A model generated the notes under the pieces. The model did not search any database, had not been told where the DNA came from, and saw only the letters and a list, made by a program, of their open reading frames with translations. The position numbers and the translations under genes are program-made. Of a DNA stretch of 43,112 nucleotides, positions 146 to 37,120 are shown in pieces; within the stretch, counting starts at the first letter, position 1, and every line of letters starts with the position of its first letter. Source of the stretch: Nitrospirota bacterium (GTDB lineage Bacteria > Nitrospirota > Nitrospiria > SBBL01 > JAADHI01); NCBI GenBank assembly GCA_029261195.1, contig JAJDBU010000001.1:1-43112 (forward strand). Reading direction: 5' to 3'.

Positions 146-1339
146 TTAATCCTCCGGTTTCCAATATTCTTCAAACTTCCCGTTTTTTGTAATCCAGACG
201 ATGTAGGGGGCTTTTGTAACATCTCCTTTCGCGTCGAATTCCACATGTCCTGAGGCACCGTCATACTTCATCTTCCGGAGCGCTGCTGAAATTTTTGTGC
301 CTTCAGTGCTCCCTGAATCTGAGATAGCCGTTAATAGAATATTGGTCGCATCGTAGGAATAGATGGCGTAGGGCGCCAGTTCATTCCCATATTTTTCTCG
401 GTATTTTTTTAAAAAACCTGCGGCCTGTGGCATTTTGTCCGGATCGGGCGTAAAGGTGAGGTAAGTGCCTTCTGCAGCGCTTCCTGCAATTTCGATAAAC
501 TTCGGATCGATGACCCCGTCACCACTCATCATCGGGGCAGTGAGGCCGACTTCCCTGGCTTGTTTTGCCAATTGTCCTCCTTCGGGGAAGACACCTCCGA
601 AGAAAAAGAGGTCGGGCTGAAGCCCTTTCAGGGTCGTCAGGATGCCACGAAAATCTCGTTCTCCCTGTATGACCCCGTCGAATGAAACCACTTCCAGCCC
701 ATCACCTGCATAGTTTGCCAGACTTTTCCGAAACTCTACAGCAAGCCCCTGTCCATAGGTGGTTTTATCGTGCAAAATCGAAACACGTTTGGCCTTTAAA
801 TGTTTGGCAACAAAATCCGCTGCGACTTTTCCTTGTTGGTCGTCCCGGCCGACGACTCGAAAGACATTGGCGTAACCCTGTTCGGTGAGTTTCGGATTGG
901 TCGATGCGGGGGTGATCATCGGGATACCGGCATCATGGTAGACCGATGATGCCGGTATTGATGCACTTGAATTGAAGTGGCCCACCATACCGACAATGCC
1001 CAGGTTGACCAATTTATTTGCGACCGAGACCGCCTGTTTTGGATCGTGCTGGTCATCGCCGACTTCCAGGCGAATCGCTCTGCCTGTGATACCGCCCTTT
1101 GCATTCCACTCATCAACGGCAAGCTGGGCGCCTCGCTCAACATCGCCGCCAAGCTTGCTTTGATCTCCGGTCATCGGGCCTGCAACCCCGATATGGATTG
1201 CAGAAGGCTTGTTCCCTTCGGCTGTTTTTCCACCTTCTTTCTCACAGGCGATGTTTGTCATCGACAAAAGAAAAAGTCCAACAATGCCGAAATAGAAAGA
1301 GCGCTGTTTTGTCCTTAAAAAAAGAACCGTTTGATCCAT
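146..1339 (-). CDS. Branched-chain amino-acid type ABC transporter substrate-binding lipoprotein
   Basis: A 397-residue periplasmic binding protein of the LivK/Leu-Ile-Val (type I) family, which captures amino acids or amides for an ABC importer. The N-terminus has a basic start, a hydrophobic segment at about residues 15-30 and a cysteine at residue 32, so it is probably a lipoprotein. The lipobox (N-I-A-C) is imperfect at -3. The mature protein opens with the family's IHIGVAGPMTGDQ strand, continues with LAVDEWNAKGGI, and has the 'VGHFNSSASIPAS' ligand-loop pattern. The start is the ATG at 1339, preceded by a GAAGGG-like ribosome site. It overlaps the end of the PBP gene by 25 bases, so the two are probably cotranscribed. 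No permease or ATPase genes are visible; they may lie outside the window, or this may be an orphan receptor. The ligand cannot be read from the sequence. Confidence 0.87.
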   Translation of the reverse strand: MDQTVLFLRTKQRSFYFGIVGLFLLSMTNIACEKEGGKTAEGNKPSAIHIGVAGPMTGDQSKLGGDVERGAQLAVDEWNAKGGITGRAIRLEVGDDQHDPKQAVSVANKLVNLGIVGMVGHFNSSASIPASSVYHDAGIPMITPASTNPKLTEQGYANVFRVVGRDDQQGKVAADFVAKHLKAKRVSILHDKTTYGQGLAVEFRKSLANYAGDGLEVVSFDGVIQGERDFRGILTTLKGLQPDLFFFGGVFPEGGQLAKQAREVGLTAPMMSGDGVIDPKFIEIAGSAAEGTYLTFTPDPDKMPQAAGFLKKYREKYGNELAPYAIYSYDATNILLTAISDSGSTEGTKISAALRKMKYDGASGHVEFDAKGDVTKAPYIVWITKNGKFEEYWKPED

Positions 1340-3675
1340 TTTAATATGCCCTTCTCACATGATTGTGTGGGTTCCGTCCCTGCAATGAAGGGTTCTTCAA
1401 TCCCGTCCTGCTCACAGACGATTCCCTGTTGATTCACTTTTTTAAAAATAATGCCATCAGGCACCTGAAATTCAGACGATTCTGAGAGAGCCGCCTGTTT
1501 CATAAAGTCGGTCCAGATGGGCAATGCTGCCGTGGCCCCCGTGAACTCTCCAGACTGGTTTTGGTCAAAGCCAACCCAGACAACCGTGACAAGCTCAGGC
1601 GTGTACCCTGCAAACCAGGCATCCCGAAGGCCGCTTGTTGTGCCGGTTTTTCCTGCGGCCGTCCCCTTAAAACCCAGTTGGCGAACGCCCTGTGCAGTGC
1701 CCGAATTGATGACCCCCTTCATGAGGTGAGTGACGAGATAGCTGGCTTCGGCCGAGATCACCCGGCTCGAACGGGCATCGTTATCAACTTCCCGCTCTAT
1801 CGGAAGACCATTCGGATCGATGATCCCGGAAAGAAACTTTGGACTGTGACGGATGCCGCCATTGGCCAGAGTCGCATAAGCCATGCCCATTTCAAGAGGT
1901 GAAACCTCTATGCTGCCCAGTGCCAGAGAGGCGACGGGCTTTAACGGGCTTTGAATACCTATTTTTTGCGCGACATCTACAATGGCATCAATACCAAGCT
2001 CTTGCGAAAGGCGAACAGTTGCCGTGTTACGCGACCTCGCAAGGGCAGTACGCAGCGTGAGTGGTCCGAGATAGCTACGGTCATAATTTTGTGGTGACCA
2101 GGTCTTTCCCCCCACTTCAATGGTAAGCGGAGCATCATCCACTTCGCTGATCGGGGTATAGGGTCTTCCGCCTTTTGCGGCTTCATCAAAAGCTGTGAGA
2201 TAGACGATGGGTTTAAAGAGTGAGCCGGGTTGGCGTCGTGCGTCTGTCACACGATTGAATTGGCTTTTTTTGTAAAAGCGACCTCCGACTAAGGCCTTCA
2301 CCGCTCCCGTAAGTGGATCGATTGCGACAAGTGCGCCTTGTAATTCCTGCTCGGGCGCAAAGCGTTTCAATCGAGGATTGTTTCTTTCCAATGTTTCAAG
2401 TCCGTTTTGAACGGCCTTTTCCGCCGACCGTTGCAAGGCAATATCAAGCGTCGTAAAAATTCGTAACCCGCTTGCATTTAAGATACGATCGGGATAGTCC
2501 CCTGCAAGCTGACGCCGGATTTGATCGATAAAATAAGGGGCTGTATTCAGGCCTTGTTTGATTTTTTTAACAGAGACTTTTTCTTTCCGTGCGGACAGAT
2601 AGGCCGACCGGGTAATGACGCCCTCAGAGAAAAGAGACTCCAGAATGAGGTTTCGTCGATGGATCGATCGATAGACATCTTTAACCGGCGAGTAAAGATT
2701 CGGGGATCGTATCATTCCGGCCAGAAGAGCTGCTTCTCCGAGGCTCAGATCAATCGCATCCTTTTCAAAATAGAACCAGGAAGCCTGCCCGATGCCGTAG
2801 ATACCCATGATGCCGTTCTGGCCCAGGTAAATCTCGTTGAAGTAGGTTTCAAGAATCTGCTCTTTTGAAAAATTCCATTCCAGAAGAAGGGCCATCATGG
2901 CTTCACGGCCCTTGCGTTCCCATGTTTTTTCACTATCGAGATAAAAGTTTTTGACCAGTTGCTGTGTGAGCGTGCTTCCCCCCTGAACGATTTTCCCAGC
3001 CCAAAGGTTCACCCAGATGGCCCGCACGATACTCTTGATGTCGATACCGGGGTGGCTGAAAAATTTACGATCTTCCACCACTAAGACGGCATCAATCAAA
3101 ATCTGGGGAATTTCCTCCAGGCGGATCAATCGTCGCTCTTCCCATTCTGATTCATAAAAACCGCCAATGACTTCCGGCTCAATCATGGGTCTTTTCAATG
3201 ACTGACCCAAAGCCACGTTCAAGGCTGTATTTTGCTCAGGAGTGGACGATAGATCCTTGATGTGTTGAATATGTCCCGTTTCAGAAAGGGAAATTTGAAG
3301 TCTGCGACCCGGCTCCGTGTGCTCCGGGTAGTCAAAAGGGTGAAGATAAATCTCCATCTCCCGACTCGATTGCCTGTATTCTCCTCTTTGTGTAACGGGA
3401 GAATCGACACGGTGATAGGCCAGCCGTTTAAGACGAGCCCCCAGGTTGGCTTTATGAATATCCAGTCCGGTTCGGAGTTTTAAAGGGGCGGAATATATCT
3501 TGGAGGGGCGTTTCCACCTCTCTCCTTCAAAGCGTTTTTTAACTTCTTCATCAAGATGAATCAGGTAGGCCGTCGCAAAACTGAAGGCAACAAAACATCC
3601 GAAGAAAATAAGACGCGATACTGTTGTTTTTTTAGGATTTTCTGTTGAGGAGGTCCTCTTTTTTTTCCACTTCAT
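1315..3675 (-). CDS. mrcB: Class A penicillin-binding protein, PBP1B type (bifunctional glycosyltransferase/transpeptidase)
   Basis: A bifunctional peptidoglycan synthase that polymerises lipid II and cross-links stem peptides in the periplasm. Numbered from an upstream GTG at 3741, it has one transmembrane segment (about 42-61) and a UB2H-like domain (about 75-165), which marks the PBP1B branch. The GT51 glycosyltransferase has the EDRKFFSHPG motif with catalytic Glu223. The transpeptidase has SLFK (Ser507), SRN (570-572) and KTGT (698-701), so all catalytic motifs are intact. I prefer the ATG at 3675, giving 786 residues. It starts with a basic cytoplasmic tail and lies just after a weak promoter-like pair (TTGAAG, 17 bases, TTATAC). 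The GTG at 3741 would add 22 residues of unlikely composition. The lipoprotein gene overlaps its 3' end. The symbol is assigned by domain architecture only. Confidence 0.9.
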   Translation of the reverse strand: MKWKKKRTSSTENPKKTTVSRLIFFGCFVAFSFATAYLIHLDEEVKKRFEGERWKRPSKIYSAPLKLRTGLDIHKANLGARLKRLAYHRVDSPVTQRGEYRQSSREMEIYLHPFDYPEHTEPGRRLQISLSETGHIQHIKDLSSTPEQNTALNVALGQSLKRPMIEPEVIGGFYESEWEERRLIRLEEIPQILIDAVLVVEDRKFFSHPGIDIKSIVRAIWVNLWAGKIVQGGSTLTQQLVKNFYLDSEKTWERKGREAMMALLLEWNFSKEQILETYFNEIYLGQNGIMGIYGIGQASWFYFEKDAIDLSLGEAALLAGMIRSPNLYSPVKDVYRSIHRRNLILESLFSEGVITRSAYLSARKEKVSVKKIKQGLNTAPYFIDQIRRQLAGDYPDRILNASGLRIFTTLDIALQRSAEKAVQNGLETLERNNPRLKRFAPEQELQGALVAIDPLTGAVKALVGGRFYKKSQFNRVTDARRQPGSLFKPIVYLTAFDEAAKGGRPYTPISEVDDAPLTIEVGGKTWSPQNYDRSYLGPLTLRTALARSRNTATVRLSQELGIDAIVDVAQKIGIQSPLKPVASLALGSIEVSPLEMGMAYATLANGGIRHSPKFLSGIIDPNGLPIEREVDNDARSSRVISAEASYLVTHLMKGVINSGTAQGVRQLGFKGTAAGKTGTTSGLRDAWFAGYTPELVTVVWVGFDQNQSGEFTGATAALPIWTDFMKQAALSESSEFQVPDGIIFKKVNQQGIVCEQDGIEEPFIAGTEPTQSCEKGILKWIKRFFF

Positions 3676-3845
3676 TGCCCGTTTGTATAACACACTTTCA
3701 AAGAAGCCTTCAATGAAACGCCAACAATCAGACAAAATCACAAAAGGTCTTTTTTGATTGAAGGGTCGAAGTCAAGCAGAAGAAACGGTCCTTCGCAGGA
3801 ACCTTCAATATGAACACCTTCGGATAGGCCTTTACTAATAAAATA

Positions 3846-3874
3846 TTGACTTGCCGGGTGAAATTGCGTAGCCT
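3846..3874 (+). promoter_or_regulatory. Possible sigma-70 type promoter of the P-II/nitrate operon
   Basis: TTGACT at 3846-3851 matches a -35 box. With 17 bases of spacing the -10 position reads TAGCCT (3869-3874), a poor match. Transcription would start near 3881, just before the hairpin leader, which is what an attenuated leader needs. I looked for a sigma-54 GG-N10-GC pair here and found none with correct spacing. Confidence 0.3.
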
Positions 3875-3892
3875 GCCAGGTAATTAGTAATC

Positions 3893-3929
3893 AAGGTACA
3901 GCGTTGTACTTTATTCTTTAAGGCGAGGG
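3893..3929 (+). promoter_or_regulatory. Tandem hexaloop hairpins resembling an ANTAR antitermination target
   Basis: Hairpin P1 spans 3893-3912. AAGGTAC pairs with GTACTTT (7 pairs, one G-U) around the 6-base loop AGCGTT. Hairpin P2 spans 3916-3929. CTTT pairs with AGGG (4 pairs, two G-U) around the 6-base loop AAGGCG. Both loops have A at position 1 and G at position 4, the known signature of RNAs bound by ANTAR-domain antiterminators such as NasR and EutV. P2 touches the 5' arm of the terminator that follows. The weak P2 stem and its overlap of only two bases are reasons for caution. No ANTAR protein is encoded in the window. Confidence 0.45.
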
Positions 3930-3967
3930 CGCCTGAATCAGAACGATGATTCAGGCGCCTTTTTTTG
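3928..3967 (+). terminator. Intrinsic terminator in the leader of the P-II/nitrate operon (candidate attenuator)
   Basis: A perfect 13-base-pair stem, GGCGCCTGAATCA (3928-3940) with its complement at 3947-3959, closes a 6-base loop and is followed at once by eight T residues. It sits only 12 bases upstream of the first P-II start codon and points into that gene. It cannot end the PBP gene, which is transcribed away from it, so it most likely acts as an attenuator for the downstream operon. Confidence 0.8.
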
Positions 3968-3979
3968 TTTGGAGTCTTT

Positions 3980-4351
3980 ATGCAAAGCGAAGAAAAATTA
4001 GAGTTAAAGGAAGTCATCGCCATCCTGCGTCCAAGTAAGCATCAGATGACCCGACAAGCCCTGGGAGCCGCCGGCATTTATGCCTATACCACCTATACGG
4101 CTCTGGGTCGAAGTCAGCAACGGGGTTTGCGCTTTCAGGCAGACACACAGAGTGCGGCCGCAATTCGCTTCCTTCCGAAGCAGGTTTTTTCAATTGTCAT
4201 TCCTGAAGCCCGCCTTTCTGCCGCGATTGCCGTCATTATGAAGGCGAATCGCAGCGGAAAGGGAATGGTCGGCGATGGACGTATTTTTGTCTGCGATGTT
4301 GAGGATGCCGTTAGGATCAGCACAGACGAAAGGGAAGGGGAGGCGATTTAA
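3980..4351 (+). CDS. P-II family signal protein, NifI2-like
   Basis: A 123-residue P-II protein. These trimers bind ATP/ADP and 2-oxoglutarate and regulate nitrogen enzymes or transporters by direct contact. The N-terminus ELKEVIAILRPSKHQMT, the FLPKQVFSIVI strand, the N-R-S-G-K turn, the GDGRIFV nucleotide-binding motif and the C-terminal A-V-R-I-S-T tail ending in EEGEAI-like residues match the NifI2 (NifHD-type) branch rather than GlnB/GlnK. The T-loop region lacks a tyrosine at the GlnB uridylylation position. I chose ATG 3980, with GGAG seven bases upstream, over the TTG at 3965 inside the terminator T-run. Its stop shares one base with the next start. NifI2 normally pairs with NifI1 in nitrogenase operons; here both precede a nitrate porter. 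Confidence 0.87.
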   Translation: MQSEEKLELKEVIAILRPSKHQMTRQALGAAGIYAYTTYTALGRSQQRGLRFQADTQSAAAIRFLPKQVFSIVIPEARLSAAIAVIMKANRSGKGMVGDGRIFVCDVEDAVRISTDEREGEAI

Positions 4352-4665
4352 TGCTTATGATTCGCACCGTAATCCGGCCTGAACGAGAAAACGAGGTGAT
4401 GAAAGCATTGGAAAAGTCTGGAATTTATGCCATGACCAAAATCCCCGTTTTGGGTCGAGGACGACAGAGAGGGATTCAGGTGGGTCGGGTCAGCTACGAC
4501 ATACTCGCAAAGCTGATGATCATCCTGTTTGTTGAGGATGCCGATTACGAAAAGGCGATTCAAGCGATTGAGTGCGGGGCCGATACCGGACATCCGGGAG
4601 ATGGACGGATTTTTGTTCAGTCGGTTTCGGAATCTTATTCAGTACGAACAGGTGTGAAAGAATGA
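4351..4665 (+). CDS. P-II family signal protein, NifI1-like (first copy)
   Basis: A 104-residue P-II protein of the NifI1 type. It starts MLMIRTVIRPERENEV, has the subfamily's GRGRQRGIQVG T-loop base and the GDGRIFV motif, and ends SVRTGVKE, close to the NifI1 tail. NifI1 and NifI2 are known to form a mixed regulator that inhibits nitrogenase unless 2-oxoglutarate is bound. No nitrogenase gene is visible here. The ATG overlaps the preceding stop by one base, and its own stop overlaps the narK start by four (ATGA). All three products should therefore be made in coupled amounts. The target is inferred to be the porter or the nitrite reductase encoded downstream. Confidence 0.87.
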   Translation: MLMIRTVIRPERENEVMKALEKSGIYAMTKIPVLGRGRQRGIQVGRVSYDILAKLMIILFVEDADYEKAIQAIECGADTGHPGDGRIFVQSVSESYSVRTGVKE

Positions 4666-6224
4666 AGACTCAAGATCTCTTTCACGTCAAACGACCCGAA
4701 ATACGGGCGCTTCACCTCACCTGGATTGCCTTCTTCCTCTGTTTCTACACCTGGTTCAACATGGCCCCCCTGGCGACCACCATCGTCAAGTCGGTCGGCT
4801 GGCTGACCGGTGAGCACATCAAGCTCTTTGCCATCTGCAACGTTGCGCTGACGATTCCGGCCCGTGTTGTAATCGGCATGGCGATGGACAAATGGGGGCC
4901 GCGGAGGGTTTTTTCCGTGTTAATGATTGTGATGGCTTTCCCCGGTTTTGTCTTTGCCTTTGGTGAAAGCTTCGCCCAACTCCTGATTTCCCGTCTCCTC
5001 CTGGGATGTATCGGTGCCAGTTTTGTGGTCGGCATTCATATGACCGCGCTCTGGTTTAAACCTGCTGATATCGGTTTTTCAGAAGGCATTTATGCCGGAT
5101 GGGGCAACTTCGGCTCTGCCGCTGCCGCGATGGCACTCCCCGCTATTGCCTTTTATCTCTTCGGAGGGGAGGACGGATGGCGCTATGCCGTGGCATCCAA
5201 CAGTGTCCTTCTTCTGGCCTACGGCACTTTCTACTGGTTTGCGATTACCGACGGACCGGCCGGAACGGTTCATCGGAAACCGCGCAAGGTTGCCGCGATG
5301 GAAGTGAGTAGTTATGGGGATATGATCAAGCTGATCCTCTGGACTATCCCGATGCTGGGCGGATTGTCCATACTGGTCTGGAAGATTCAGCGGATGGGCT
5401 ATCTCGCTTGGCTTGGGGCAGCAATTGCCTACGGCATCATTGTCGCTGCGATACTCTATCAGATCGTTCAAATCTTAAAGATCAACCTTCCGATCTTGAA
5501 AACGGGGGTTCCCAAGGATGACCGATACGATTTCAATAGTGTTGGCGCGCTCAATTCGACCTACCTTGCCAACTTCGGTGCTGAGCTGGCGGTCGTTTCT
5601 ATGCTGCCCTCCTTTTTTGAGATGACCTTTTCCCTTTCACCAGCTGCGGCAGGCATCATCGCCTCCTCCTTCGCTTTCGTCAACCTTTTTGCGCGCCCTT
5701 TGGGTGGTGTGATCTCCGACAGGATGAAAAGCCGTAAAAAGGTGATGCTGATTTACATGTTAGGGATATCCGTCGGTTTCTTTTTGATGGGACTGATTAG
5801 TGCCGCCTGGCCGATTACGCTTGCGGTTTTCATCACGATCTTTTGTTCTATTTTTGTGCAGGGTGCAGAGGGGGCGACCTTCGCAATTATTCCGATGATC
5901 AAGCGCCGTCTGACCGGGCAAATTTCCGGGATGGCGGGGGCTTACGGGAATGTCGGCGCAGTAGTCTATCTGACGATCTATTCCTTCGTTGATTCTCAGA
6001 CCTTCTTTTTCGTGATTGCATCCGGGGCCTTAAGCAGTTTTTTCATCTGCTGGCGATATCTTAAGGAGCCGGAAGAAGCCTTTTCCGGTGAATACTACCT
6101 CTCCTCGGTAGACCGGGATATTGAAGGAGAGGCGATTCTGGGCGATCTGTTCAGCACGGAAATGCTTGCCCCTTCTCTAAAGGAGGGACAGATCAAAATG
6201 GAAGTAGGCCCGCATGAAAAATAA
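4662..6224 (+). CDS. narK: NarK/NrtP-type nitrate/nitrite porter (MFS)
   Basis: A 520-residue inner-membrane transporter of the nitrate-nitrite porter branch of the major facilitator superfamily. Both nitrate signature stretches are visible: GWGNFGSAAAA in the first half and GAYGNVGAVVYL in the second. The MFS loop motif DKWGPRRV follows helix 2, and the RLLLGCIGASF stretch follows in helix 4. The number of hydrophobic segments fits 12 helices plus an extended central region (about residues 205-300). The start is the ATG at 4662, overlapping the NifI1 stop by four bases; an upstream in-frame ATG at 4572 lies inside the P-II gene and is rejected. The gene overlaps the nitrite reductase gene by 11 bases. 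It probably imports nitrate and/or nitrite for the reductases encoded nearby; direction and ion preference are not decidable from sequence. Confidence 0.93.
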   Translation: MKTQDLFHVKRPEIRALHLTWIAFFLCFYTWFNMAPLATTIVKSVGWLTGEHIKLFAICNVALTIPARVVIGMAMDKWGPRRVFSVLMIVMAFPGFVFAFGESFAQLLISRLLLGCIGASFVVGIHMTALWFKPADIGFSEGIYAGWGNFGSAAAAMALPAIAFYLFGGEDGWRYAVASNSVLLLAYGTFYWFAITDGPAGTVHRKPRKVAAMEVSSYGDMIKLILWTIPMLGGLSILVWKIQRMGYLAWLGAAIAYGIIVAAILYQIVQILKINLPILKTGVPKDDRYDFNSVGALNSTYLANFGAELAVVSMLPSFFEMTFSLSPAAAGIIASSFAFVNLFARPLGGVISDRMKSRKKVMLIYMLGISVGFFLMGLISAAWPITLAVFITIFCSIFVQGAEGATFAIIPMIKRRLTGQISGMAGAYGNVGAVVYLTIYSFVDSQTFFFVIASGALSSFFICWRYLKEPEEAFSGEYYLSSVDRDIEGEAILGDLFSTEMLAPSLKEGQIKMEVGPHEK

Positions 6225-9200
6225 AAAAAGCACAGACCCAAAACTCGTCGTGGTCGGAAATGGAATGGCTGCGATGACCGCCGTCGAGGCGATTCTGAAA
6301 AAGAAACCGAACAGCTCGATTACTATCTTCGGAGATGAAAGTCAGACGAATTACAATCGGATTCAACTTTCGAATGTCCTGGCTGGAAAGACAGATGCCG
6401 AAAAAATCATCCTGCATACAAAGGCCTGGTACGCAGAGAAGGGCATTGATCTGAGGCAGGGCGTTCCGGTGAGCGCCATCGACACCGAAACAAAGAGGGT
6501 GTTTGACGCAAACGGGGATCAAAGCACCTATGACCACCTCCTGCTCGCAACGGGGAGCCTTCCCGTGGTTCCGCCGATAGAAGGATCCGGGAAAAAAGGT
6601 GTCTTTGTTTTTAGAACCCTGGCGGACACCAATAGGATTATTGCTGCTGCAAGCAATCACTTGGAAGCGGTGGTCATCGGTGGAGGTCTTCTGGGGCTTG
6701 AAGCAGCGCGGGGCTTGATGAACTACGGCCTCAGCGTCACGGTTGTCCATCTGGCCAAGCACTTGATGGAACAACAACTGGACCCCGCAGGCGCCGCCCT
6801 ACTCAAGCAGGAAATCGAGCAAATAGGCATTCGCGTGTTGACAGGAACCACCGTGAAGAAGATCGGTGGAGAGGAGTCCGTCACCGAAGTACAGCTCTCG
6901 ACCGGAGCAGTCTTATCCGCAGGCATGGTGATCATCTGCGCCGGCACACGACCCAATACTGCACTGGCAGAGGCCGCTGCTTTGAAGATCAATCGCGGCA
7001 TCGTCGTGGACGACCGGCTGGAAACCAGCGAATCCGGGGTCTTCGCTATCGGAGATGTCATCGAACATCGAGGGCGGACTTACGGTCTGATCGCGCCCTT
7101 AAAAGAACAGGCGAGGGTCATCGCCGATGTCATCGCGGGAGAGGATATAAAACGCTATACAGGGACGCTTTGCGCCACGACGCTCAAGGTTGCTGGTGTT
7201 TCGCTGACCTCAGCCGGCAGTTTAAATCGAGAAATCGGGGACGAAGAGTTGGCCTTTCTGGACACCCGGCGGGGCCTCTACAAAAAGTGCATTCTCCGGA
7301 ACAATCGCCTCACTGGATTTATTCTCCTGGGAGACACAAAAGACGGTACACGCCTTTTTGGATTACTCAAAAAAGGGACGGATCTTTCAGCCACTAAAGA
7401 TCAACTGCTTGGAAATATCTCCGTTACAGAAGAAAATGCGCCTTCCGCAGCCTCCGGGGCAACGACTCTGGCCGATTCCGATACGGTCTGCAACTGCAAT
7501 GATGTGTGCAAGGGCGCCATCGTCAGCGCCATCCGAAAAAATGGACTCAAGACCCGTGACGAAGTTGCGGCCTGTACCGAAGCGACAACGGGCTGCGGCA
7601 GTTGCGGAGCAATCGTGGATGACCTGCTTGCCATCGTCAACCAAAGCGCCCCATCGCTTGTCCCGATAACGGCAGAAAAAAAGAAAAAGCCCAGTTCCAC
7701 CAAGACGCTTGATCTTGAAAAAATTAAACAAGAGGGACTCGGGATCGATTTTGAGCGGATCACAAAAGAAGGGGCACGGGCGGTCTCAATGGATGACAAA
7801 TATCGCCTCAAAACCTACGGCATCTGCGTTCAAAAACACGCCGGTTACTCAATCGTCCGGATTCGTATTCCGGGCGGACGGCTCCGTCCCGAACAGCTTG
7901 CTCCCCTGATGGAATTGGTGGCCACTCACGGGCGGGGCCAAGTGCATTTGACTGTCCGGCAAAATATCGAGATCCATTGGGTTCGGGTTGAAGAAGCCGA
8001 AGATATTTTTGAGCGCTTGAGAAACATCGGTCTGACAACGCGCTCCACCTGCGGCCATACCCTGAGAAATGTCATGGCCTGCACACACGGCGCAATTTCT
8101 GATGACGGCATTTTAGATGTGCAGCCCTGGGCCGAAGTCATCTCCAACTACTTTATCGAACGCTCCGACTTGATCAATCCGACCATGCCGAATCGACTCA
8201 ATATCTATTTTTCCGGCTGTCGAGAATGCAATGCCGATGCGGTCATCAACGACATTGGTTTTGTTGCCGTGCGAAAAAAAAATGAGGCGGAGCGGGAAGG
8301 ATTTGGTGCGAGGCAAGAAGAACTTGGTGCGAGGCAAGAAGAACTTGGTTTTGAAGTCTGGGTGGGGGGCAGCCTGGGGGCGAAGCCGATGCTGGGTCTT
8401 AAACTACGGGATTTTATTCCCCTTAAGGATGCCCTGCCCGTCTGTCAGGCCGTCTTTGCCATTCATACCTTACATGGGAATAGAAACAAGGCCCGCTCTC
8501 GACTGAAGTTTCTGATTGCAGAATGGGGACAGGAAAAGTTTAGCGCTGAATTTGACCGGGTCTTTCTTGAAAAAAAGGCCAACCCCGATAATCGTTTGAT
8601 CTCGCTTCCGGGAGGTCTTGGGGATGAAAAGAAACCTTCCTTACTAAAGAAACCCTCTTGGCTGAGGAGAGCGCTTTCTTCACTGACAAATCTTCAAGCC
8701 GAAAATACGCCGGGCATCCTGCCTCAGCGACAAGGTGGTTCTGTCCGCCTCACGATCGGCGTAGCCCTCGGAGATATTCGGTCGGAGCAGGTACTGGAAA
8801 TCGGAAAGATTTCAAAACGCTTTGGAGACGGCTTCCTGCATTTAACTAAAGACCAGGATATTGAACTCCATGCCATTTCCACCTTGTCCATCAAACAGGC
8901 GCTTGCAGCCATCAAAGCACTGGGTTTTTCCTTGAAGGGCGATGGCAGCGGACCGAATTTGATTGCCTGTCCCGGCATCGAATTTTGTACCCTCGCGATT
9001 ACCCACGCACAGGGAGCGGTGCGGGACTTACTCAAACATTATCACCCTGAGGATCAGCTCAAACGGGACTTGTTTGACTCCCTCTCCATTTATATTTCCG
9101 GTTGCCCGAATAGCTGCGCAAAACATCAGGCTGCCGATATTGGATTAGCAGGTACGATGCTCCCCCTTGGGGATGCCCGGCGCTACTCCTATCAGCTTTT

Positions 9201-9468
9201 TCTGGGCGGTTCACTCAAAGCAGGGGATGTCCAACTCGGGGGGATGGTCCGAAAAGGCATTACCGAAGACATGGTAATACCCACTGTGGATGCCTTGCTG
9301 GACATTGTTCTGGAATTTCGTCAGGGCGAAGAGTCCTTTCATGACGTCGTCCGACGCTTGGGTCCGAAAACAATGATGAAATTTTTTGAAGAAAAAATCA
9401 TGCCCTTTGTTCCCGAAAAATCGAAGGTATTAGCGATGGTCACCACAGAATTAATCGAGGTTTCATAA
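6214..9468 (+). CDS. NADH-dependent sirohaem nitrite reductase: NirB-like diaphorase fused to a two-half NirA/CysI-like haemoprotein
   Basis: A 1084-residue predicted cytoplasmic enzyme reducing nitrite to ammonium. Residues 1-400 are a FAD/NAD(P)H pyridine-nucleotide oxidoreductase (VVVGNGMAA, VVIGGGLLGLEAA, GVFAIGDV). Residues 420-475 form one BFD [2Fe-2S] domain with Cys426, 428, 461 and 464. Residues 530-810 form the first ferredoxin-like plus sirohaem half (TRSTCGHTLRN, SGCREC). Residues 840-1084 form the second half, carrying the sirohaem-[4Fe-4S] ligands Cys919, 925, 964 and 968. Classic NirB has two BFD domains, a single reductase half and about 850 residues, so this is an unusual chimera. 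A 21-base in-frame tandem repeat lies in the first half. The ATG overlaps narK by 11 bases and the stop overlaps the next P-II start by one. Sulfite reduction is possible, but the porter and nitrate reductase context favours nitrite. Confidence 0.85.
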   Translation: MKNKKSTDPKLVVVGNGMAAMTAVEAILKKKPNSSITIFGDESQTNYNRIQLSNVLAGKTDAEKIILHTKAWYAEKGIDLRQGVPVSAIDTETKRVFDANGDQSTYDHLLLATGSLPVVPPIEGSGKKGVFVFRTLADTNRIIAAASNHLEAVVIGGGLLGLEAARGLMNYGLSVTVVHLAKHLMEQQLDPAGAALLKQEIEQIGIRVLTGTTVKKIGGEESVTEVQLSTGAVLSAGMVIICAGTRPNTALAEAAALKINRGIVVDDRLETSESGVFAIGDVIEHRGRTYGLIAPLKEQARVIADVIAGEDIKRYTGTLCATTLKVAGVSLTSAGSLNREIGDEELAFLDTRRGLYKKCILRNNRLTGFILLGDTKDGTRLFGLLKKGTDLSATKDQLLGNISVTEENAPSAASGATTLADSDTVCNCNDVCKGAIVSAIRKNGLKTRDEVAACTEATTGCGSCGAIVDDLLAIVNQSAPSLVPITAEKKKKPSSTKTLDLEKIKQEGLGIDFERITKEGARAVSMDDKYRLKTYGICVQKHAGYSIVRIRIPGGRLRPEQLAPLMELVATHGRGQVHLTVRQNIEIHWVRVEEAEDIFERLRNIGLTTRSTCGHTLRNVMACTHGAISDDGILDVQPWAEVISNYFIERSDLINPTMPNRLNIYFSGCRECNADAVINDIGFVAVRKKNEAEREGFGARQEELGARQEELGFEVWVGGSLGAKPMLGLKLRDFIPLKDALPVCQAVFAIHTLHGNRNKARSRLKFLIAEWGQEKFSAEFDRVFLEKKANPDNRLISLPGGLGDEKKPSLLKKPSWLRRALSSLTNLQAENTPGILPQRQGGSVRLTIGVALGDIRSEQVLEIGKISKRFGDGFLHLTKDQDIELHAISTLSIKQALAAIKALGFSLKGDGSGPNLIACPGIEFCTLAITHAQGAVRDLLKHYHPEDQLKRDLFDSLSIYISGCPNSCAKHQAADIGLAGTMLPLGDARRYSYQLFLGGSLKAGDVQLGGMVRKGITEDMVIPTVDALLDIVLEFRQGEESFHDVVRRLGPKTMMKFFEEKIMPFVPEKSKVLAMVTTELIEVS
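8301..8342 (+). repeat. 21-bp in-frame tandem duplication inside the nitrite reductase gene
   Basis: Two copies of a 21-base unit, 8301-8321 and 8322-8342, differ at one base and are followed by a partial third start. They encode the heptad G-A-R-Q-E-E-L twice (protein residues about 698-712). The unit keeps the reading frame and adds a charged surface loop between the first-half SGCREC motif and the next core strand. Confidence 0.85.
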
Positions 9469-9782
9469 TGAAGTTGGTTCAAGCAATCGTTCGTCCGGAA
9501 AAAGAACAGGAAGTCATCTTGGCTCTGGAAAAGTCCGGATTTTTTGCCTTTACACGTCTCCAGGTCTCGGGTCGTGGTCGGCAACGGGGCATACAAGTGG
9601 GTTCCGTTCGCTACGAAGAGCTGCAAAAGATCTGGTTGATGATTTCCTGCGAGGATGCCGAAATAGATCGGGTCGTCGATGCCATTCAAATCGCCGCCTG
9701 CACCGGCAACCCTGGAGACGGAAAGATTTTTGTTTCAAGGCTTCAAGAAGCGCGGCCGATACGGAAAGTGAGGATGGATTAA
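9468..9782 (+). CDS. P-II family signal protein, NifI1-like (second copy)
   Basis: A 104-residue P-II protein, the third in this operon. It starts MKLVQAIVRPEKEQEV, has GRGRQRGIQVGSVRY at the T-loop and GDGKIFVSRL near the end. It is closely similar to the NifI1-like protein at 4351-4665 but differs in the T-loop and C-terminus, so the two copies probably have distinct partners. The start ATG shares one base with the nitrite reductase stop, so translation is coupled to the enzyme. This placement suggests it acts on the reductase itself, as NifI proteins act on the enzyme encoded beside them. That target is inference. Confidence 0.87.
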   Translation: MKLVQAIVRPEKEQEVILALEKSGFFAFTRLQVSGRGRQRGIQVGSVRYEELQKIWLMISCEDAEIDRVVDAIQIAACTGNPGDGKIFVSRLQEARPIRKVRMD

Positions 9783-9818: not shown

Positions 9819-9852
9819 GAGAGTGTTGCAGTAATATGATTGCAACACTCTC
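9819..9852. promoter_or_regulatory. 12-bp perfect inverted repeat upstream of the sigma-54 activator gene
   Basis: GAGAGTGTTGCA (9819-9830) is repeated as its exact complement at 9841-9852 around a 10-base spacer. Outer arms ATCTCT (9808-9813) and AGAGAT (9853-9858) add a second level of symmetry. No T-run follows, so it is a poor terminator. It contains the half-sites GTTGCA and TGCAAC, which recur upstream of the nitrate reductase gene. It may be an operator for the Fis-type HTH of the regulator encoded just downstream, or an RNA hairpin after the operon. Confidence 0.5.
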
Positions 9853-9916
9853 AGAGATGGCGTACAGTCCTTTCTCAATGGCTCAGAATTGCCCAAAACC
9901 TGAAGAGGGAATAGGG

Positions 9917-11242
9917 ATGCAGCCCGCCACAGACCACATGAGCACGGCGCTGAACGTCTTAAAAGAAGCGGTTTTTGTTTATGATCAAGACATGGTCATC
10001 AAACGCTTCAACCGGGCCGCTGAAAAAATAACGGGCTTTAGTAAAGCAGAGGTCATCGGTCAAAAGTGCGTCACACTTTTCAAGGAGAGCATCTGTCTCG
10101 GCAATTGCGATCTTTGTATGGTCGCAAAAAAAAACCCGAAACTGATTCGCTTCGAGTCACCCTTTTACCGGAAAGATACTCAGAAACGATTCGGCGAATT
10201 TAATGTCGGACTCCTCAATCGGGAGCATGACGGGCAGCTTGAAGTGCTTGTTGCCTTGACCGATATTACAGAAGTCGTGGCATTGCGGGATGCCCTGAAG
10301 GAGAGTACGTCATTTCACAAAATGATTGGGCACAGTCGGCCGATGAACGTACTTTATGAGATGGTCAAAAATACAGCTTACTTCGATTCCACCGTTCTGC
10401 TTCAAGGAGAAACGGGCACAGGAAAAGAGCTCATCGCACAAGCCATTCACCTTGAAAGTCCGCGTCGTCATCAAAAATTGGTCAAGGTGAATTGCGCCTC
10501 TTTTTCAGACAGCCTCCTGGAAAGCGAGCTCTTCGGCCACACAAGAGGGGCATTTACCGGAGCGGTCAAAGACCGGATGGGCCGCTTCGAAGAGGGAGAT
10601 GGCGGGACAGTGTTTCTGGATGAAGTCGGCGACCTCAGCCTGAACATTCAAGTCAAACTATTGCGTGTCTTGCAAGAAAAAGAAATCGAACGCGTGGGTG
10701 AAAACCGAACGCGCAAGACCGATTTTCGCCTCGTTGTCGCAAGCAACAAAAACCTTGAGGAAGAAGTTTCCAAGGGACATTTCCGGAAAGACCTTTTCTA
10801 CCGCCTCAATGTCATCCCCATCCGAATTCCGTCCCTCAGGGAAAGAAAGTCGGACATTCCCAACCTAGTGAATCATTTCATAAAAAACTGGCGAGGTCGC
10901 TCCCGGAAAGAAGTTTCAGGTATTTCCGACATTGCTCTGGGACAGCTCATGGATTATGACTGGCTCGGCAATGTCCGGGAGCTCGAAAACACCATCGAAC
11001 ATGCCTGCGTCAAATGCATGAATGGAAGGATTCAGGCTCAAGATCTGCCATTTTATTTGATTAAAGGCGCCCTCGGAGAAGGGGGCACAAGGAAACCAAG
11101 ACAGAAGTTTTCTAAGGAGAGAATCCTTGATGTTTTAACCCAGGTGGGTGGAAACAAGAGCGAAGCCGCACGGCAGCTCGGATGTCATCGGATTACCCTT
11201 TGGCGAAAAATGCAGGATTTAGGTATTGCAAGCCCCCTCTAA
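9917..11242 (+). CDS. PAS-domain sigma-54-dependent transcriptional activator (NtrC/NifA family)
   Basis: A 441-residue enhancer-binding protein that opens sigma-54 promoters. A PAS domain (about 8-125) carries an unusual cysteine group, Cys51, 60, 64 and 67. The AAA+ domain has Walker A GETGTGKE (164-171), the sigma-54 contact loop GAFTGA (211-216) and Walker B VFLDEV (232-237). It ends in a Fis-type HTH with [18 protein letters not shown]. The ATG at 9917 has a GAGGGA ribosome site; the ORF can be extended to an ATG at 9836, but that lies in the loop of an inverted repeat. There is no receiver domain, so the signal is probably sensed by the PAS domain (redox, metal or gas are possible). The location between the nitrite and nitrate reductase genes suggests it controls them. 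Confidence 0.88.
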
Positions 11243-12586: not shown

Positions 12587-14767
12587 ATGTTATTTGGACG
12601 ACGAACAAAAAATCCGATCCAACTTCCCGTCAAAGCGGTTGATAAATGGGTCTACACCACCTGTGGCTATTGCTCGACCGGTTGCTCTCTGGATGTCGGG
12701 CTTGATGACAAAGGCGCTGCCATCACGACCCGGGGTGTGGCCGATGCCGATGTCAACCGGGGCAAGCTCTGCCTGAAAGGCATCTACGAATTCGAGGTCT
12801 TTCGTTCCCTGAATCGCGGCAGGGTCCCCCTCATTCGCAAAACCCGCTCTGACCCTTTCACCGAAACCACCTGGGATGAAACACTCAACAAGACGGCCTC
12901 TGAAATCCAGCGGATTCAGGGGCTTTACGGTCGAGACAGCTTTGCCATTGTTTCAACCGGACAGATCTACACCGAGGAATTTTATACCCTCGGCAAACTC
13001 GTCCGCGCGGTTATCGGGACCAACAACTACGATGGCAATACCACGCTCTGCATGGCCTCTGCCGTTTCCGGCTACAAACGATCCTTCGGCAGCGACGGCC
13101 CCCCCGGTTGCTACGACGATTTTGATCAGACAAATTGCCTACTTGCCATAGGCTCTAACCTGCCGGAGCAGCACCCGATTATTTATTATCGTTTGAAAGA
13201 AGCCTACGACCGGCGGCATTTCCCCATAATCGTCGTCGATCCCCGCGTCACCCTGTTTGCCCAAATGGCCGACATTCACCTCCCCGTCAAGCCGGGAACC
13301 GACCTGGTCCTCTTGAATGCCCTGGCACACGTTATTCTCACAGAGGGACTGGCTGATCAAAACTACATCCAGGCCCACACCAGCGGCTTTGAGGATTTTA
13401 AGAAACTGGTTGAAGCCTACAATCCCGAGATGGCCGAGAAAATCTGTGGGATCCCGGCGAAGATGATCCGCAAGGTCGCCCGTATTTATGCCGAAGCCGG
13501 TGCGGCGATGACCATCTGGACGATGGGGATCAACCAATCAACTCATGGCTCGGATGGCGTGGTGGCCATCAACAACCTGAACCTCATCACGGGCAATATC
13601 GGCAAACCGGGCGGCACCTCCCTTTCGATTACCGGACAGTGTAACGCGATGGGGACACGGGAGTTTTCATCCTGTTCCGGCCTCCCCGGATACCGTACCC
13701 TGGAGAAGGAAGAAGACCGGCAGTTCATGGCCGACTACTGGGGAGTCGAAGCATCCTTCTTCCCACAGAAACGTGGCATGGCCGAAACCGATATCTTTCC
13801 CGCGATTGAACGGGGCGAGATCAAGGGCCTCTGGCTCATCGCCACGAATCCGATGACCTCGATGCCCGACACGGCCCGTATCAGAAAGTCCTTTGAACAA
13901 CTTGAATTTCTGGTCGTGCAGGACGCCTATTCAGATGTGGAGACCAATGAATATGCCCACGTTTTTTTTCCCGCCTCCCTCTGGGGAGAAAAGGAAGGGG
14001 TCTTCACCAACACCGAACGGCGGGTCAACCTGGTCCGGAAGGTAATGGACCCGCCGGGAGAGGCCAAGCCGGATCTCTGGATTTTTACAGAGATGGCAAA
14101 GCGCTTTGAACGAGGAAAAGAGATGACGTTTTCAACAACTGCGACAGAGGTGTTTGAGGAAATCAAGACGCTTTCTAAAGGTCGTCTCTGCGATTATTCC
14201 GAGATGAGCCATGACAAGATCGAGAAACAACGCGGCATTCAATGGCCTTGCAATACCGAGCATCCCAAAGGCAATCGACGTCTCTACGAAACGGGTGTTT
14301 TCCAGCACGCCGATGGCCGAGCCAAGCTGATCCCCCTCCCCTTTGTGGATAACAATGAATGCCCGGATAAGGAATACCCCTTCTGGCTGAACAGTGGGCG
14401 TTTGGTTGAGCAGTGGCATACGCGGACCAAGACTGGAAAAATCGGGAACCTGAATAAATTCAGTCCGACGCCTTTTATGGAAATGAACCCCAGGGCCGCC
14501 GCAAAACTCGGCATTGCGGCAATGGACTACGTTCGGGTGCATTCACGCCGGGACTCCGCTGTCGTCCTGGTACAGCTCACTGAACGAGTCGCCCCCGATG
14601 CGGTTTTTATCCCGATGCACTATTTCAACTGCATCAATCGACTGGCTCTCGGCCTGCTCGACCCCTACTCCCGACAACCGGCCTACAAGCAGTCAGCAGT
14701 GAGAATCGAATGTCTGGAAGATCAAGAAGCGGCTGCACGGGAAAATGTCGCAATGCGGAATTATTGA
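12587..14767 (+). CDS. narB: Assimilatory-type nitrate reductase catalytic subunit (NarB/NasA family molybdoenzyme)
   Basis: A 726-residue molybdopterin oxidoreductase that reduces nitrate to nitrite. The N-terminal [4Fe-4S] motif is Cys26, 29, 33 and 62. Cys155 in the TTLCMASAV stretch is the expected molybdenum ligand, followed by the family's GYKRSFGSDGPP stretch. The segment MGINQSTHGSDG, and the GNIGKPGGTSL and GQCNAMGTRE stretches after it, are typical of NarB/NasA. There is no Tat signal, so it is cytoplasmic. The length fits cyanobacterial NarB; the C-terminal BFD domain found in enterobacterial NasA is absent. Electrons must come from another protein, probably the iron-sulfur/membrane fusion encoded next. 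The ATG at 12587 is the only start after an in-frame stop; GAGGAAGGG lies rather far upstream. Confidence 0.9.
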   Translation: MLFGRRTKNPIQLPVKAVDKWVYTTCGYCSTGCSLDVGLDDKGAAITTRGVADADVNRGKLCLKGIYEFEVFRSLNRGRVPLIRKTRSDPFTETTWDETLNKTASEIQRIQGLYGRDSFAIVSTGQIYTEEFYTLGKLVRAVIGTNNYDGNTTLCMASAVSGYKRSFGSDGPPGCYDDFDQTNCLLAIGSNLPEQHPIIYYRLKEAYDRRHFPIIVVDPRVTLFAQMADIHLPVKPGTDLVLLNALAHVILTEGLADQNYIQAHTSGFEDFKKLVEAYNPEMAEKICGIPAKMIRKVARIYAEAGAAMTIWTMGINQSTHGSDGVVAINNLNLITGNIGKPGGTSLSITGQCNAMGTREFSSCSGLPGYRTLEKEEDRQFMADYWGVEASFFPQKRGMAETDIFPAIERGEIKGLWLIATNPMTSMPDTARIRKSFEQLEFLVVQDAYSDVETNEYAHVFFPASLWGEKEGVFTNTERRVNLVRKVMDPPGEAKPDLWIFTEMAKRFERGKEMTFSTTATEVFEEIKTLSKGRLCDYSEMSHDKIEKQRGIQWPCNTEHPKGNRRLYETGVFQHADGRAKLIPLPFVDNNECPDKEYPFWLNSGRLVEQWHTRTKTGKIGNLNKFSPTPFMEMNPRAAAKLGIAAMDYVRVHSRRDSAVVLVQLTERVAPDAVFIPMHYFNCINRLALGLLDPYSRQPAYKQSAVRIECLEDQEAAARENVAMRNY

Positions 14768-14790: not shown

Positions 14791-14825
14791 CCGTCATTCC
14801 CCCATGGTCGTAGCGGGAATGACGG
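14791..14825. repeat. REP-like palindrome in the gap between the two nitrate reductase genes
   Basis: CCGTCATTCCC (14791-14801) and GGGAATGACGG (14815-14825) are perfect complements separated by 13 bases. GTCATTCCC palindromes of this kind are common dispersed intergenic repeats in many bacterial genomes. It ends 24 bases before the next start codon and could form an RNA hairpin that tunes expression between the catalytic and electron-transfer subunits. Confidence 0.6.
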
Positions 14826-14848
14826 TTAAATATGATTTTGGAGTCACA

Positions 14849-16648
14849 ATGAACAATATAAATAGTCAGCACGGAACACCCATTGCCCTGGATCAGGTCT
14901 ACCCTGCTCTGGCCAATATCCCCCTCGAAATTAACGGCAAAGAAACCGAGGCAGACAATCCGGATCGCTACAAACAACACGGCTTCCACTTTAACGCCGA
15001 CAACTGCATCGCCTGCCATGCCTGTGAATCAGCCTGTTCTGAAAAGAATGACCTGCCGCCGCATCTAGCCTTTCGAACCGTCGGGACGATTGAAGGGGGT
15101 TATTATCCCGATGTCACGCGCATCAATATCTCGATGGCCTGCAACCACTGCGAAGACCCGGTCTGTCTGAAAGGCTGTCCGACACGGGCCTATACAAAAT
15201 ACCTGGAATACGGTGCGGTTTTGCAAGACCCAGATATTTGTTTCGGCTGCGGCTACTGCACCTGGGTTTGTCCTTACAACGCGCCCCAGCTTGATCCTGT
15301 GAAAGGGGAGGTTTCAAAGTGCAATATGTGTGTGGATCGACTGGAAGTCGGCCTGCAACCGGCCTGCGTCTCCGCCTGCCTCGGAAACGCCCTTGACTTC
15401 GGCGTGATGGAGGAAACACCCAAAGGTCAGGAAGAGATCAAATTGACCCTACCCTCTTTTCCCGACCCGAGCATCTCACGGCCCAACATCCGCTTTCAGC
15501 AAAAGCGTGAATTGCCGGAATCCTTTGGTCGGATGGATGCGGGTGAGATGACTTATCAACGGGGTGAAGGCAATGACAATCATTTCAAGATTGCAGAGAA
15601 GAAAACCAAGAAACTAGAGGGCTGGGGTTTTGACAAGCTCCGTTCCAGAGAAGACCCGCTGGTACTTTTCACTCTGGTTTCACAGTTTACCGTCGGAGCC
15701 TTTCTCCTTCTTTTTCTCCTGCCAAGTTTCACCGGAATGGCCGTGGCTTTGTCTCCTGAAGCCCACCCCTTCGCTTTCGGTGGCTTGCTCGTCTGCCTGG
15801 TGTTGGTTCAGGCGTTTGCATTACTCTCATCGACCCTGCATTTGGGAAAACCTCAATATTTTTACCGAGCCTTCAATAACCTGCGTCACTCCTGGGTCAG
15901 TCGGGAAATTGCAGCCATGGGGGCTTTCTTCACCCTACTGGGGGCCTATACCCTTGTCACCCTTTTCCCTATATTGATCACATGGCTGCCTGAAGCTCTG
16001 TCACAAAACATCCCGGACTGGCTCGGATGGGGCACCTGCCTAACAGGACTACTTGGCATCTATTGCATGTATCGCTGCTACCGGATTCCGGCGCGTCCCT
16101 ACTGGGATCATTGGCACTCCGGAGGAGTCTTTTTTGCGAGCGGACTGATTCTCGGAAGTGGTCTCCTGGGTCTTGTATTTGGTGGCGCAGGTCTCTTTGC
16201 CAATGTCGGGCTGGGCCCCCTGCTCAACCTACTTGCCTGGCCCCTTGAAATCGGATTGATCCTTCAAGGGATTTCCCTCTATGGGCATCGCATAGATCTG
16301 GATCGACGTGGCGAAGAAGCTGCTATTTCCAGGATCTTGATGGATGGCGTGCATGGCAAGATACACCGTCTCCGATTGATGGTGTGGGGTATCCTGATGC
16401 TTGCTTCCCTGGCCTTTACCCTTATTCCACTGAGCGCTGCCCTGGCATTGGCCGCATGGAGCTTGGCCCTCGTTCTGGCGCTCTTTAACGAGATCATCGG
16501 CCGCGCGCTTTTCTATGTCCTGGTCGTTCCGACCACAGTCCCAAGGAGCTTCTTCTGGGGAAATGAGCGTTTTGAAAACGACGCGCGGAAGAGCGGTTTG
16601 GCGGCCCTGCCTCAAGTTGGAGTGGTGGAAGAAGAGCATTCAGGCTGA
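14849..16648 (+). CDS. Fused four-cluster ferredoxin (DmsB-like) and membrane anchor (DmsC-like) subunit
   Basis: A 599-residue electron-transfer protein predicted to pass electrons from the quinol pool to the nitrate reductase. Residues 45-190 hold sixteen cysteines in four groups, the full set for four [4Fe-4S] clusters: Cys53/56/59/63, 98/101/106/110, 131/134/137/141 and 158/161/173/177. From about residue 275 onward a DmsC-type hydrophobic domain with roughly eight membrane segments follows. In DMSO reductases these are separate proteins. No Tat signal is seen, so the iron-sulfur part should face the cytoplasm, matching the catalytic subunit. The ATG at 14849 has GGAG eight bases upstream; the longer ORF start at 14804 lies inside the palindrome. 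The pairing with a NarB-type enzyme is unusual. Confidence 0.85.
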   Translation: MNNINSQHGTPIALDQVYPALANIPLEINGKETEADNPDRYKQHGFHFNADNCIACHACESACSEKNDLPPHLAFRTVGTIEGGYYPDVTRINISMACNHCEDPVCLKGCPTRAYTKYLEYGAVLQDPDICFGCGYCTWVCPYNAPQLDPVKGEVSKCNMCVDRLEVGLQPACVSACLGNALDFGVMEETPKGQEEIKLTLPSFPDPSISRPNIRFQQKRELPESFGRMDAGEMTYQRGEGNDNHFKIAEKKTKKLEGWGFDKLRSREDPLVLFTLVSQFTVGAFLLLFLLPSFTGMAVALSPEAHPFAFGGLLVCLVLVQAFALLSSTLHLGKPQYFYRAFNNLRHSWVSREIAAMGAFFTLLGAYTLVTLFPILITWLPEALSQNIPDWLGWGTCLTGLLGIYCMYRCYRIPARPYWDHWHSGGVFFASGLILGSGLLGLVFGGAGLFANVGLGPLLNLLAWPLEIGLILQGISLYGHRIDLDRRGEEAAISRILMDGVHGKIHRLRLMVWGILMLASLAFTLIPLSAALALAAWSLALVLALFNEIIGRALFYVLVVPTTVPRSFFWGNERFENDARKSGLAALPQVGVVEEEHSG

Positions 16649-19106: not shown

Positions 19107-19110
19107 GTCA

Positions 19111-36350: not shown

Positions 36351-36383
36351 TTATCGATTCTCTCTTTTCGGTCATCAGTGAGT

Positions 36384-36563
36384 TTAAGTATCCGGATATT
36401 CCTCCCGGATGATCCCATTTTCCATAATGACAACCGCAGTACCGGTCAAGCGTGCCGCTTCACGCGCTTTGATCGCTGCCCGCTTCATCGCAAGTTCTGC
36501 ATTGACCAAATCCGGGTCTCTTTGATGTTGCGGCTTACTTTGATCAGATTTATTTATACTCAT
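36384..36563 (-). CDS. Small protein (59 aa), candidate antitoxin of the zeta-like kinase
   Basis: A 59-residue ORF with ATG at 36563-36561 and TAA at 36386-36384. It overlaps the stop of the zeta-like kinase gene by four bases (ATGA), so translation is coupled. The sequence is basic and helical in the middle (LAMKRAAIKAREAARL), then TGTAVVIMENGIIREE near the end. Small proteins with a TGT-x-hydrophobic strand are common partners of zeta-toxin-like P-loop kinases in my recollection of such loci. I infer an antitoxin or a modulating partner; no experiment or family assignment supports it here. Confidence 0.65.
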   Translation of the reverse strand: MSINKSDQSKPQHQRDPDLVNAELAMKRAAIKAREAARLTGTAVVIMENGIIREEYPDT

Positions 36564-37090: not shown

Positions 37091-37120
37091 TTTTATTCAA
37101 ACCTAGCGTAGGTCATGCGG

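Follow-up and report, generated by a model that had tools for sequence, protein, structure and literature searches.

The P-II/nitrate operon of a Nitrospirota genome is preceded, in the 43,112-nt stretch of DNA analysed here (hereafter the window), by a leader (positions 3893–3966, plus strand) that we regard with high confidence as an ANTAR-controlled transcription attenuator, with protein binding, antitermination and the nature of the signal predicted from sequence. The leader contains two hexaloop hairpins, the second of which is mutually exclusive with an intrinsic terminator; the element is conserved and its stems covary in related genomes, the window's genome holds a single ANTAR gene, and elements of the same kind recur before other nitrogen genes.

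Structure of the leader

The first hairpin, P1 (3893–3912, plus strand; AAGGTAC[AGCGTT]GTACTTT), identified by sequence reading, folding and covariation, has a 7-bp stem including one G-U pair and a loop (3900–3905) with A at position 1 (A1) and G at position 4 (G4), as an earlier note on this DNA had described. An 8-nt linker separates it from the second hairpin, P2 (3921–3934, plus strand; AGGC[GAGGGC]GCCT), the putative antiterminator, which was recognised by conservation, covariation and folding and has a 4-bp stem and a loop at 3925–3930. The intrinsic terminator (3928–3966, plus strand), found by sequence reading, a terminator scan and folding, consists of a 13-bp stem with perfectly paired arms, GGCGCCTGAATCA (3928–3940) and TGATTCAGGCGCC (3947–3959), a 6-nt loop and a run of seven Ts (3960–3966), and folds with −27 kcal/mol (z −8.6). 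The perfect 13-bp stem just before the first start codon (ATG at 3980) had been reported correctly; the T run had been counted as eight. Positions 3928–3934 (the 3′ arm of P2 together with the adjoining half of its loop) belong to both P2 and the terminator, and since the 3′ arm of P2 sits within the 5′ arm of the terminator, the two structures are mutually exclusive.

The earlier note had drawn the second hairpin in another register, CTTT[AAGGCG]AGGG, which can be formed but keeps a stem of at least three pairs with A1 and G4 in only 2 of 25 related leaders, whereas in the register five bases downstream (that of P2 as given above) all 25 keep G4 and a stem of at least 3 bp. The claim that both loops carry A1 and G4 therefore stands for G4, but A1 is found in P1 only, the P2 loop beginning with G. 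The overlap of only two bases between the second hairpin and the terminator, named as a weakness at the time, disappears in the corrected register, in which the 3′ arm and half of the loop lie inside the terminator arm.

The whole leader folds with −35.4 kcal/mol (z −7.0), and a partial transcript (3881–3936) is predicted to form P1 and P2, the energy model additionally pairing loop bases 1 and 6 in both hairpins. Among dinucleotide shuffles of a 46-nt stretch, 0.19% yielded a P1 with A1, G4 and a stem of 7 bp or more. When the window was shuffled 2,805 times and both strands were scanned, the combination of P1, P2 and terminator was found on 18 of the 5,610 strands; in the unshuffled window it was found at the 3893–3966 site only. 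A search of the leader against Rfam returned nothing at the gathering threshold, the weak matches being to unrelated families, and no ATG-started leader peptide lies within 3881–3928.

Genetic context

Positions 3881–3980 form the 5′ leader of the operon, with GGAG at 3971–3974 ahead of the ATG at 3980. The upstream gene (1315–3741) codes for a penicillin-binding protein on the minus strand and is divergent, so that the terminator can act only on the P-II/nitrate operon. The genes of the operon, on the plus strand, code for a P-II protein (3980–4351, Pfam PF00543), a second P-II protein (4351–4665, PF00543), a NarK-family nitrate/nitrite MFS transporter (4572–6224; PF07690, with TIGR00886 below cut-off), the start of which is uncertain and the open frame of which overlaps the second P-II gene, a NirB-like/siroheme nitrite reductase fusion (6214–9468; domain and family model searches), a third P-II protein (9468–9782, PF00543), a PAS/sigma-54-interaction activator (9836–11242; domain search), two proteins without assignment, an assimilatory nitrate reductase-like molybdoenzyme (12587–14767; NasC, NasA and Fdh-alpha models, all below cut-off) and a 4Fe-4S/DmsC-like subunit (14804–16648; domain search). 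The operon thus contains three separate P-II genes (starting at 3980, 4351 and 9468). In relatives, the first gene codes for an Oxidored_molyb domain (PF00174, sulfite-oxidase-type) fused N-terminally to P-II (L003:1501–2604, L015:1486–2610 and others); the first gene in the window consists of the P-II part only, without the Oxidored_molyb domain, and in family f10 the two parts are separate genes.

A possible sigma-70 promoter, TTGACT-N17-TAGCCT (3846–3874, plus strand), was read by eye; it is weak (8 of 12 consensus bases) and was not reported by a consensus promoter scan. The homologous operons carry a sigma-54 promoter, which the window operon lacks: with a position weight matrix of the relatives' sites, the best candidate in the window scored 2.6 compared with at least 15.3 for the sites of the relatives. 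A palindrome close to GACAAAWTTGTC is conserved upstream of the sigma-54 promoters in L051, L054, L056, L057, L059, L062, L066 and L068 and is probably bound by the sigma-54 activator that the operon itself encodes; it was not found in the window.

Elsewhere in the window, a gene cluster coding for a sucrose-phosphate synthase/phosphatase and a PfkB-type kinase (16956–20888) is likely involved in sucrose metabolism, and the region 33211–39769, in which a gene for an MmeI-like type IIL restriction-modification protein (37121–39769) lies near a Zeta-toxin-like gene, a DEAD helicase gene and a MUG113-domain gene, is possibly a defence cluster.

Homologous leaders

The same leader was found upstream of the fused first gene in Ca. 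Troglogloeales, Manganitrophaceae, another Nitrospirae lineage (L071) and two Elusimicrobia (L078, L080), examples being GAAATAC[AATGTT]GTATTTC + GGGC[GATGGC]GCTC (L056), TCACAC[AAGGGT]GTGTGA + TGGC[GATGGC]GCCG (L071) and GGTTC[ATAGCG]GAACT + AGAAC[GAAGGC]GTTCT (L080). P2 in the relatives is mostly GGC-RANGGC-GCC or GAC-RANGGC-GTC. Loop base G4 is invariant in P1 and P2 alike (25 of 25 leaders) and A1 of the P1 loop is present in 22 of 25; position 1 of the P2 loop is usually G, as in the window, and otherwise A or U. The earlier note had proposed an alignment of homologous leaders as a check, and the terminator, the dual hexaloops and G4 are indeed kept, but P2 is less strict about A1. Not every homologous leader has a good P1, which is poor or absent in L004 and in Manganitrophus L008–L012; for the Manganitrophus nitrate leaders L008–L012 several drawings of P1 were possible, none of them convincing.

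Compensatory changes were observed in 7 of the 10 stem pairs (4 of 6 in P1 and 3 of 4 in P2, including one pair that is G-C in 13 leaders and A-U in 11) among 24 distinct leaders, counts that lean towards the structure because models of the same structure had been used to find and align these leaders. The covariation score was.358 compared with.190 ±.019 for shuffled alignments, none of 500 shuffles scoring as high, and controls with slid alignments gave far lower covariation. Changes on both sides were already seen in 5 of 10 pairs in the first five-row alignment (MAFFT). On a shared model, the 44-nt leader core scored 51 bits in the window and 52 bits in its neighbour L051, which is not independent evidence as both are in the model seed. 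The core persists between the window and its relatives although both flanks have changed, the sigma-54 promoter and the Oxidored_molyb domain being gone.

A covariance model (R1) built from five leaders, the window among them, retrieved the element before glnB and nifA-like genes of family f10, and a second model (R2) found it in more than 20 of the 98 relatives searched, a number to be read with the reservation that the leaders counted are of the same kind as those used to build R2 and a third model (R3) and that the related genomes are not independent. A covariance-model search, another check proposed earlier, gave no Rfam match at threshold, but home-built models do retrieve the element in relatives.

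ANTAR genes in the window's genome and its relatives

A search of the window's genome (3.04 Mb, 99% complete) for an ANTAR gene, likewise suggested by the earlier note, revealed exactly one (PF03861, E = 1.9e-22). It codes for a protein of 429 aa (L001:292–1578) with two GAF domains and an ANTAR domain (Pfam) and is not adjacent to the P-II/nitrate operon. When aligned to EutV (6wsh), the protein has R, K, R, K, E, F and M at the positions of the EutV contacts R142, K143, K147, K149, E160, Y164 and M172 (contacts from PMC8934654, with the numbering derived from a constant offset of two), so the predicted RNA contacts are kept or conservatively replaced. No NIT domain was found in the protein with Pfam. 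The best PDB relatives of its first GAF domain include GAF domains of phosphoenolpyruvate-protein phosphotransferases (3ci6, 3trc). For the GAF domains of PtsP (EI-Ntr), the signals are glutamine and 2-oxoglutarate, which offers no more than a lead. The ANTAR gene of family f10 and that of the Nitrospira-family genome G041 lie beside nadE and near glnB/glnD, names that were read by eye except for nadE and the glnB relatives (family models).

Across relatives, the element was present in 23 of 28 ANTAR-positive and in 0 of 6 ANTAR-negative genomes (hypergeometric p = 3.4e-4), a count that leaves out the deep families f6 and f13, in which the models give no credible element, and a p-value uncorrected for shared ancestry, most of the genomes being related MAGs. 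None of the ANTAR-negative genomes among the 98 relatives contained a credible element, and G008 and G010, which belong to the same order, have neither the ANTAR gene nor the leader. Twenty further genomes carry a homologue of the first gene: three of these (L071 and the two Elusimicrobia) have the leader and all three are ANTAR-positive, while 13 of the 17 without leader are ANTAR-negative. The R2 model found no credible target in the closely related, ANTAR-positive Nitrospira.

An element with a longer linker was read by eye in G041, ahead of nadE, and one was found by script in G067; the script did not find it in G018, G058, G061 or G068. The G041 element, GGGGAAC[AAGGGC]GTTTCCC + AGGAC[GATGAC]GTCCT (L164:3020–3260), lies between the ANTAR gene and nadE, and its linker is long and able to fold into a hairpin of its own. 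Three genomes of family f13, probably relatives of Leptospirillum, have a P2 and a terminator within 1.1–1.2 kb just past the ANTAR domain.

Further candidate leaders

Of the R2 matches that were inspected, those with terminators were located ahead of nasA-type reductases (L118, L122, L124, L125), glnB (L114–L116, L120, L126), nifA-like activators (L111, L119, L127–L130), glnA (L135) and, by eye, a formamidase/acetamidase-like gene (L123); profile models assigned some of the target gene families and others were named by eye. R3, applied to genomes of the same family, added an ABC substrate-binding protein (L141), nirB (L154) and an NtrC/NifA-like activator (L142). Matches in relatives that lay inside ORFs and lacked a terminator (L132–L134, L136–L138) were rejected. 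Two P1-P2-terminator units follow one sigma-54 promoter in Manganitrophus (L127:2783–2920, L130:2792–2940), where they precede porin, amtB and glnB genes (L161; names by eye). Two units in a row are also present in G001, of the window's genus, before a porin gene (L131; L175, reverse strand, ~1950–2130) that is followed by ureD-like and urea-transporter-like genes (by eye).

The search for targets in the window's own genome covered covariance-model matches and selected stretches, and a leader ahead of nadE-glnA (L177:1860–1950, i.e. G000:C3, ~33360–33450) is likely the second one. It comprises a sigma-70-like TTGACA, an 8-bp P2 with canonical A1 and G4, AAGAAGAC[AATGGC]GTCTTCT, and a terminator that begins inside the loop; no clear P1 was found ahead of it. 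Other matches in this genome were discarded, G000:C39 being antisense inside an ORF and C54, C29 and C27 lacking a terminator or lying inside ORFs. A separate candidate, G000:C73 (L107, reverse strand, 975–1065), consists of TTAC[AGTGCT]GTAG tipping a long hairpin, TGGC[GATGAT]GCCG and a terminator; it sits between a citrate-synthase-like gene and ileS (by eye) and makes no nitrogen sense.

Discussion

We propose that, by default, the nascent RNA would form P1 and the strong intrinsic terminator, and polymerase would stop before the operon. An active ANTAR dimer would bind the P1 hexaloop and then P2 as it emerges, and P2, when held, would occupy the 5′ arm of the terminator, which would block termination and allow the operon to be read through. 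Probably the GAF domains sense nitrogen status and so supply the input. The ANTAR antiterminator reading put forward in the earlier note is thus well supported by the single ANTAR gene, the covarying homologous leaders and the lack of the leader in six ANTAR-less relatives. Further nitrogen operons, among them nadE-glnA of the window's genome, are very probably under the control of the same ANTAR protein.

The alternative that comes closest is a NasR-type switch, in which nitrate or nitrite would be sensed directly by an ANTAR protein dedicated to nitrate assimilation. Such a switch would suit an operon that encodes nitrate transport and reduction, and nitrate genes of other bacteria are under the control of NasR and NasT (PMC7496416, PMC3795266), but it is unlikely here, as the protein is a GAF-GAF-ANTAR rather than a NIT-ANTAR protein and the elements also precede glnA, glnB, amtB-glnB, nadE-glnA, urea and formamidase genes. 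On the same grounds the nitrate-responsiveness tentatively suggested in the earlier note finds no support: the breadth of the predicted regulon (glnA, glnB, amtB, urea, formamidase) argues for general nitrogen status rather than nitrate as the signal. It is more doubtful still that the attenuator is constitutive or controlled in another way (through an RNA-binding protein other than ANTAR, an aptamer for a small molecule, or a leader peptide) with the hexaloops being incidental. The terminator is kept even in homologues with a weak P1, and the link between ANTAR protein and leader RNA is a sequence-based prediction; however, Rfam gave no family at threshold, an ATG-started leader peptide is absent from 3881–3928, the stems of the hexaloop hairpins covary, G4 never changes and the occurrence of the element follows that of the ANTAR gene. 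An ordinary terminator without regulatory role, for example at the end of an upstream transcript, would have the strong stem and seven Ts but is scarcely credible, as the upstream gene on the minus strand leaves no plus-strand gene transcript to end and the order P1-P2-terminator recurs before many nitrogen operons.

An ANTAR-controlled attenuator is also what comparison with known systems points to. As in the EutV leaders of the Enterococcus faecalis eut genes, there are two hexaloops with G4 in both, a linker within the 5–12 nt known from eut (PMC3369931), a P2 that overlaps the 5′ arm of the terminator, as the 13-nt EutV P2 site AGCAANGRRGCUY does (PMC3369931), and is close to this motif, and an ANTAR protein with kept or conservatively replaced contacts. 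In contrast to EutV leaders, the P2 loop here usually has G at position 1 and a pyrimidine at position 6, the sensor is GAF-GAF instead of a phosphorylated receiver, the genes concern nitrogen instead of ethanolamine, and the phylum is different. A1 mutations weakened EutV antitermination (PMC3369931), and in the structure G4 is the only base-specific EutV contact, A1 having no direct contact with the protein (PMC8934654). The leader shares with ANTAR targets two hexaloop hairpins of at least 3 bp, a short linker, G4 in both loops, overlap with a terminator and an ANTAR gene with the contact residues; as the conserved features stated for such targets include A1 in P2, where the window has G1, we class it as a variant and not as a plain member. 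The nasF leader of Klebsiella oxytoca is similar to what is predicted here in that an assimilatory nitrate/nitrite reductase operon is antiterminated by an ANTAR protein, NasR, but NasR is a nitrate-sensing NIT-ANTAR protein known for one operon, whereas here NIT is not fused to ANTAR, the protein is GAF-GAF-ANTAR and the element stands before many nitrogen operons. Predicted control of nitrate assimilation by an ANTAR antiterminator is likewise shared with NasS-NasT of Paracoccus, Azotobacter and Bradyrhizobium, in which the ANTAR protein NasT is held by the nitrate sensor NasS. The putative ANTAR nitrogenase/glutamate-synthase regulons of Pelobacter and Desulfotomaculum (PMC3369931) are similar in being multi-operon nitrogen regulons derived from a covariance search, but concern other phyla and genes, whereas the element described here is recurrent across Nitrospiria and the GAF-ANTAR gene lies beside nadE/glnB/glnD in some relatives.

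We lean towards the broader view that one GAF-GAF-ANTAR protein may be a global nitrogen regulator in the class Nitrospiria, which would act during elongation on nitrate, nitrite, urea, formamide, ammonium-transport, glutamine-synthetase, NAD-synthetase and NtrC/NifA-like genes, often behind a sigma-54 promoter, so that initiation and elongation would both have to be licensed, with tandem attenuators in some cases and a relaxed A1 in P2.

The mechanism of antitermination itself is already known; experiments have established ANTAR antitermination in a handful of systems, the majority of which comprise a single operon. Our literature search found no report of an ANTAR nitrogen regulon in Nitrospirota, and as far as this search shows, the Nitrospirota nitrogen regulon, tandem ANTAR attenuators behind one promoter in such a setting and the relaxed A1 in P2 are new. 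Nitrospirota are central to the nitrogen cycle and include nitrifiers and the manganese oxidiser Ca. Manganitrophus, and a multi-operon ANTAR layer of nitrogen control appears to exist in this phylum. The finding predicts that one protein would serve many leaders, offers a natural test of the need for A1 and gives a reason to seek the ligand of the GAF domains.
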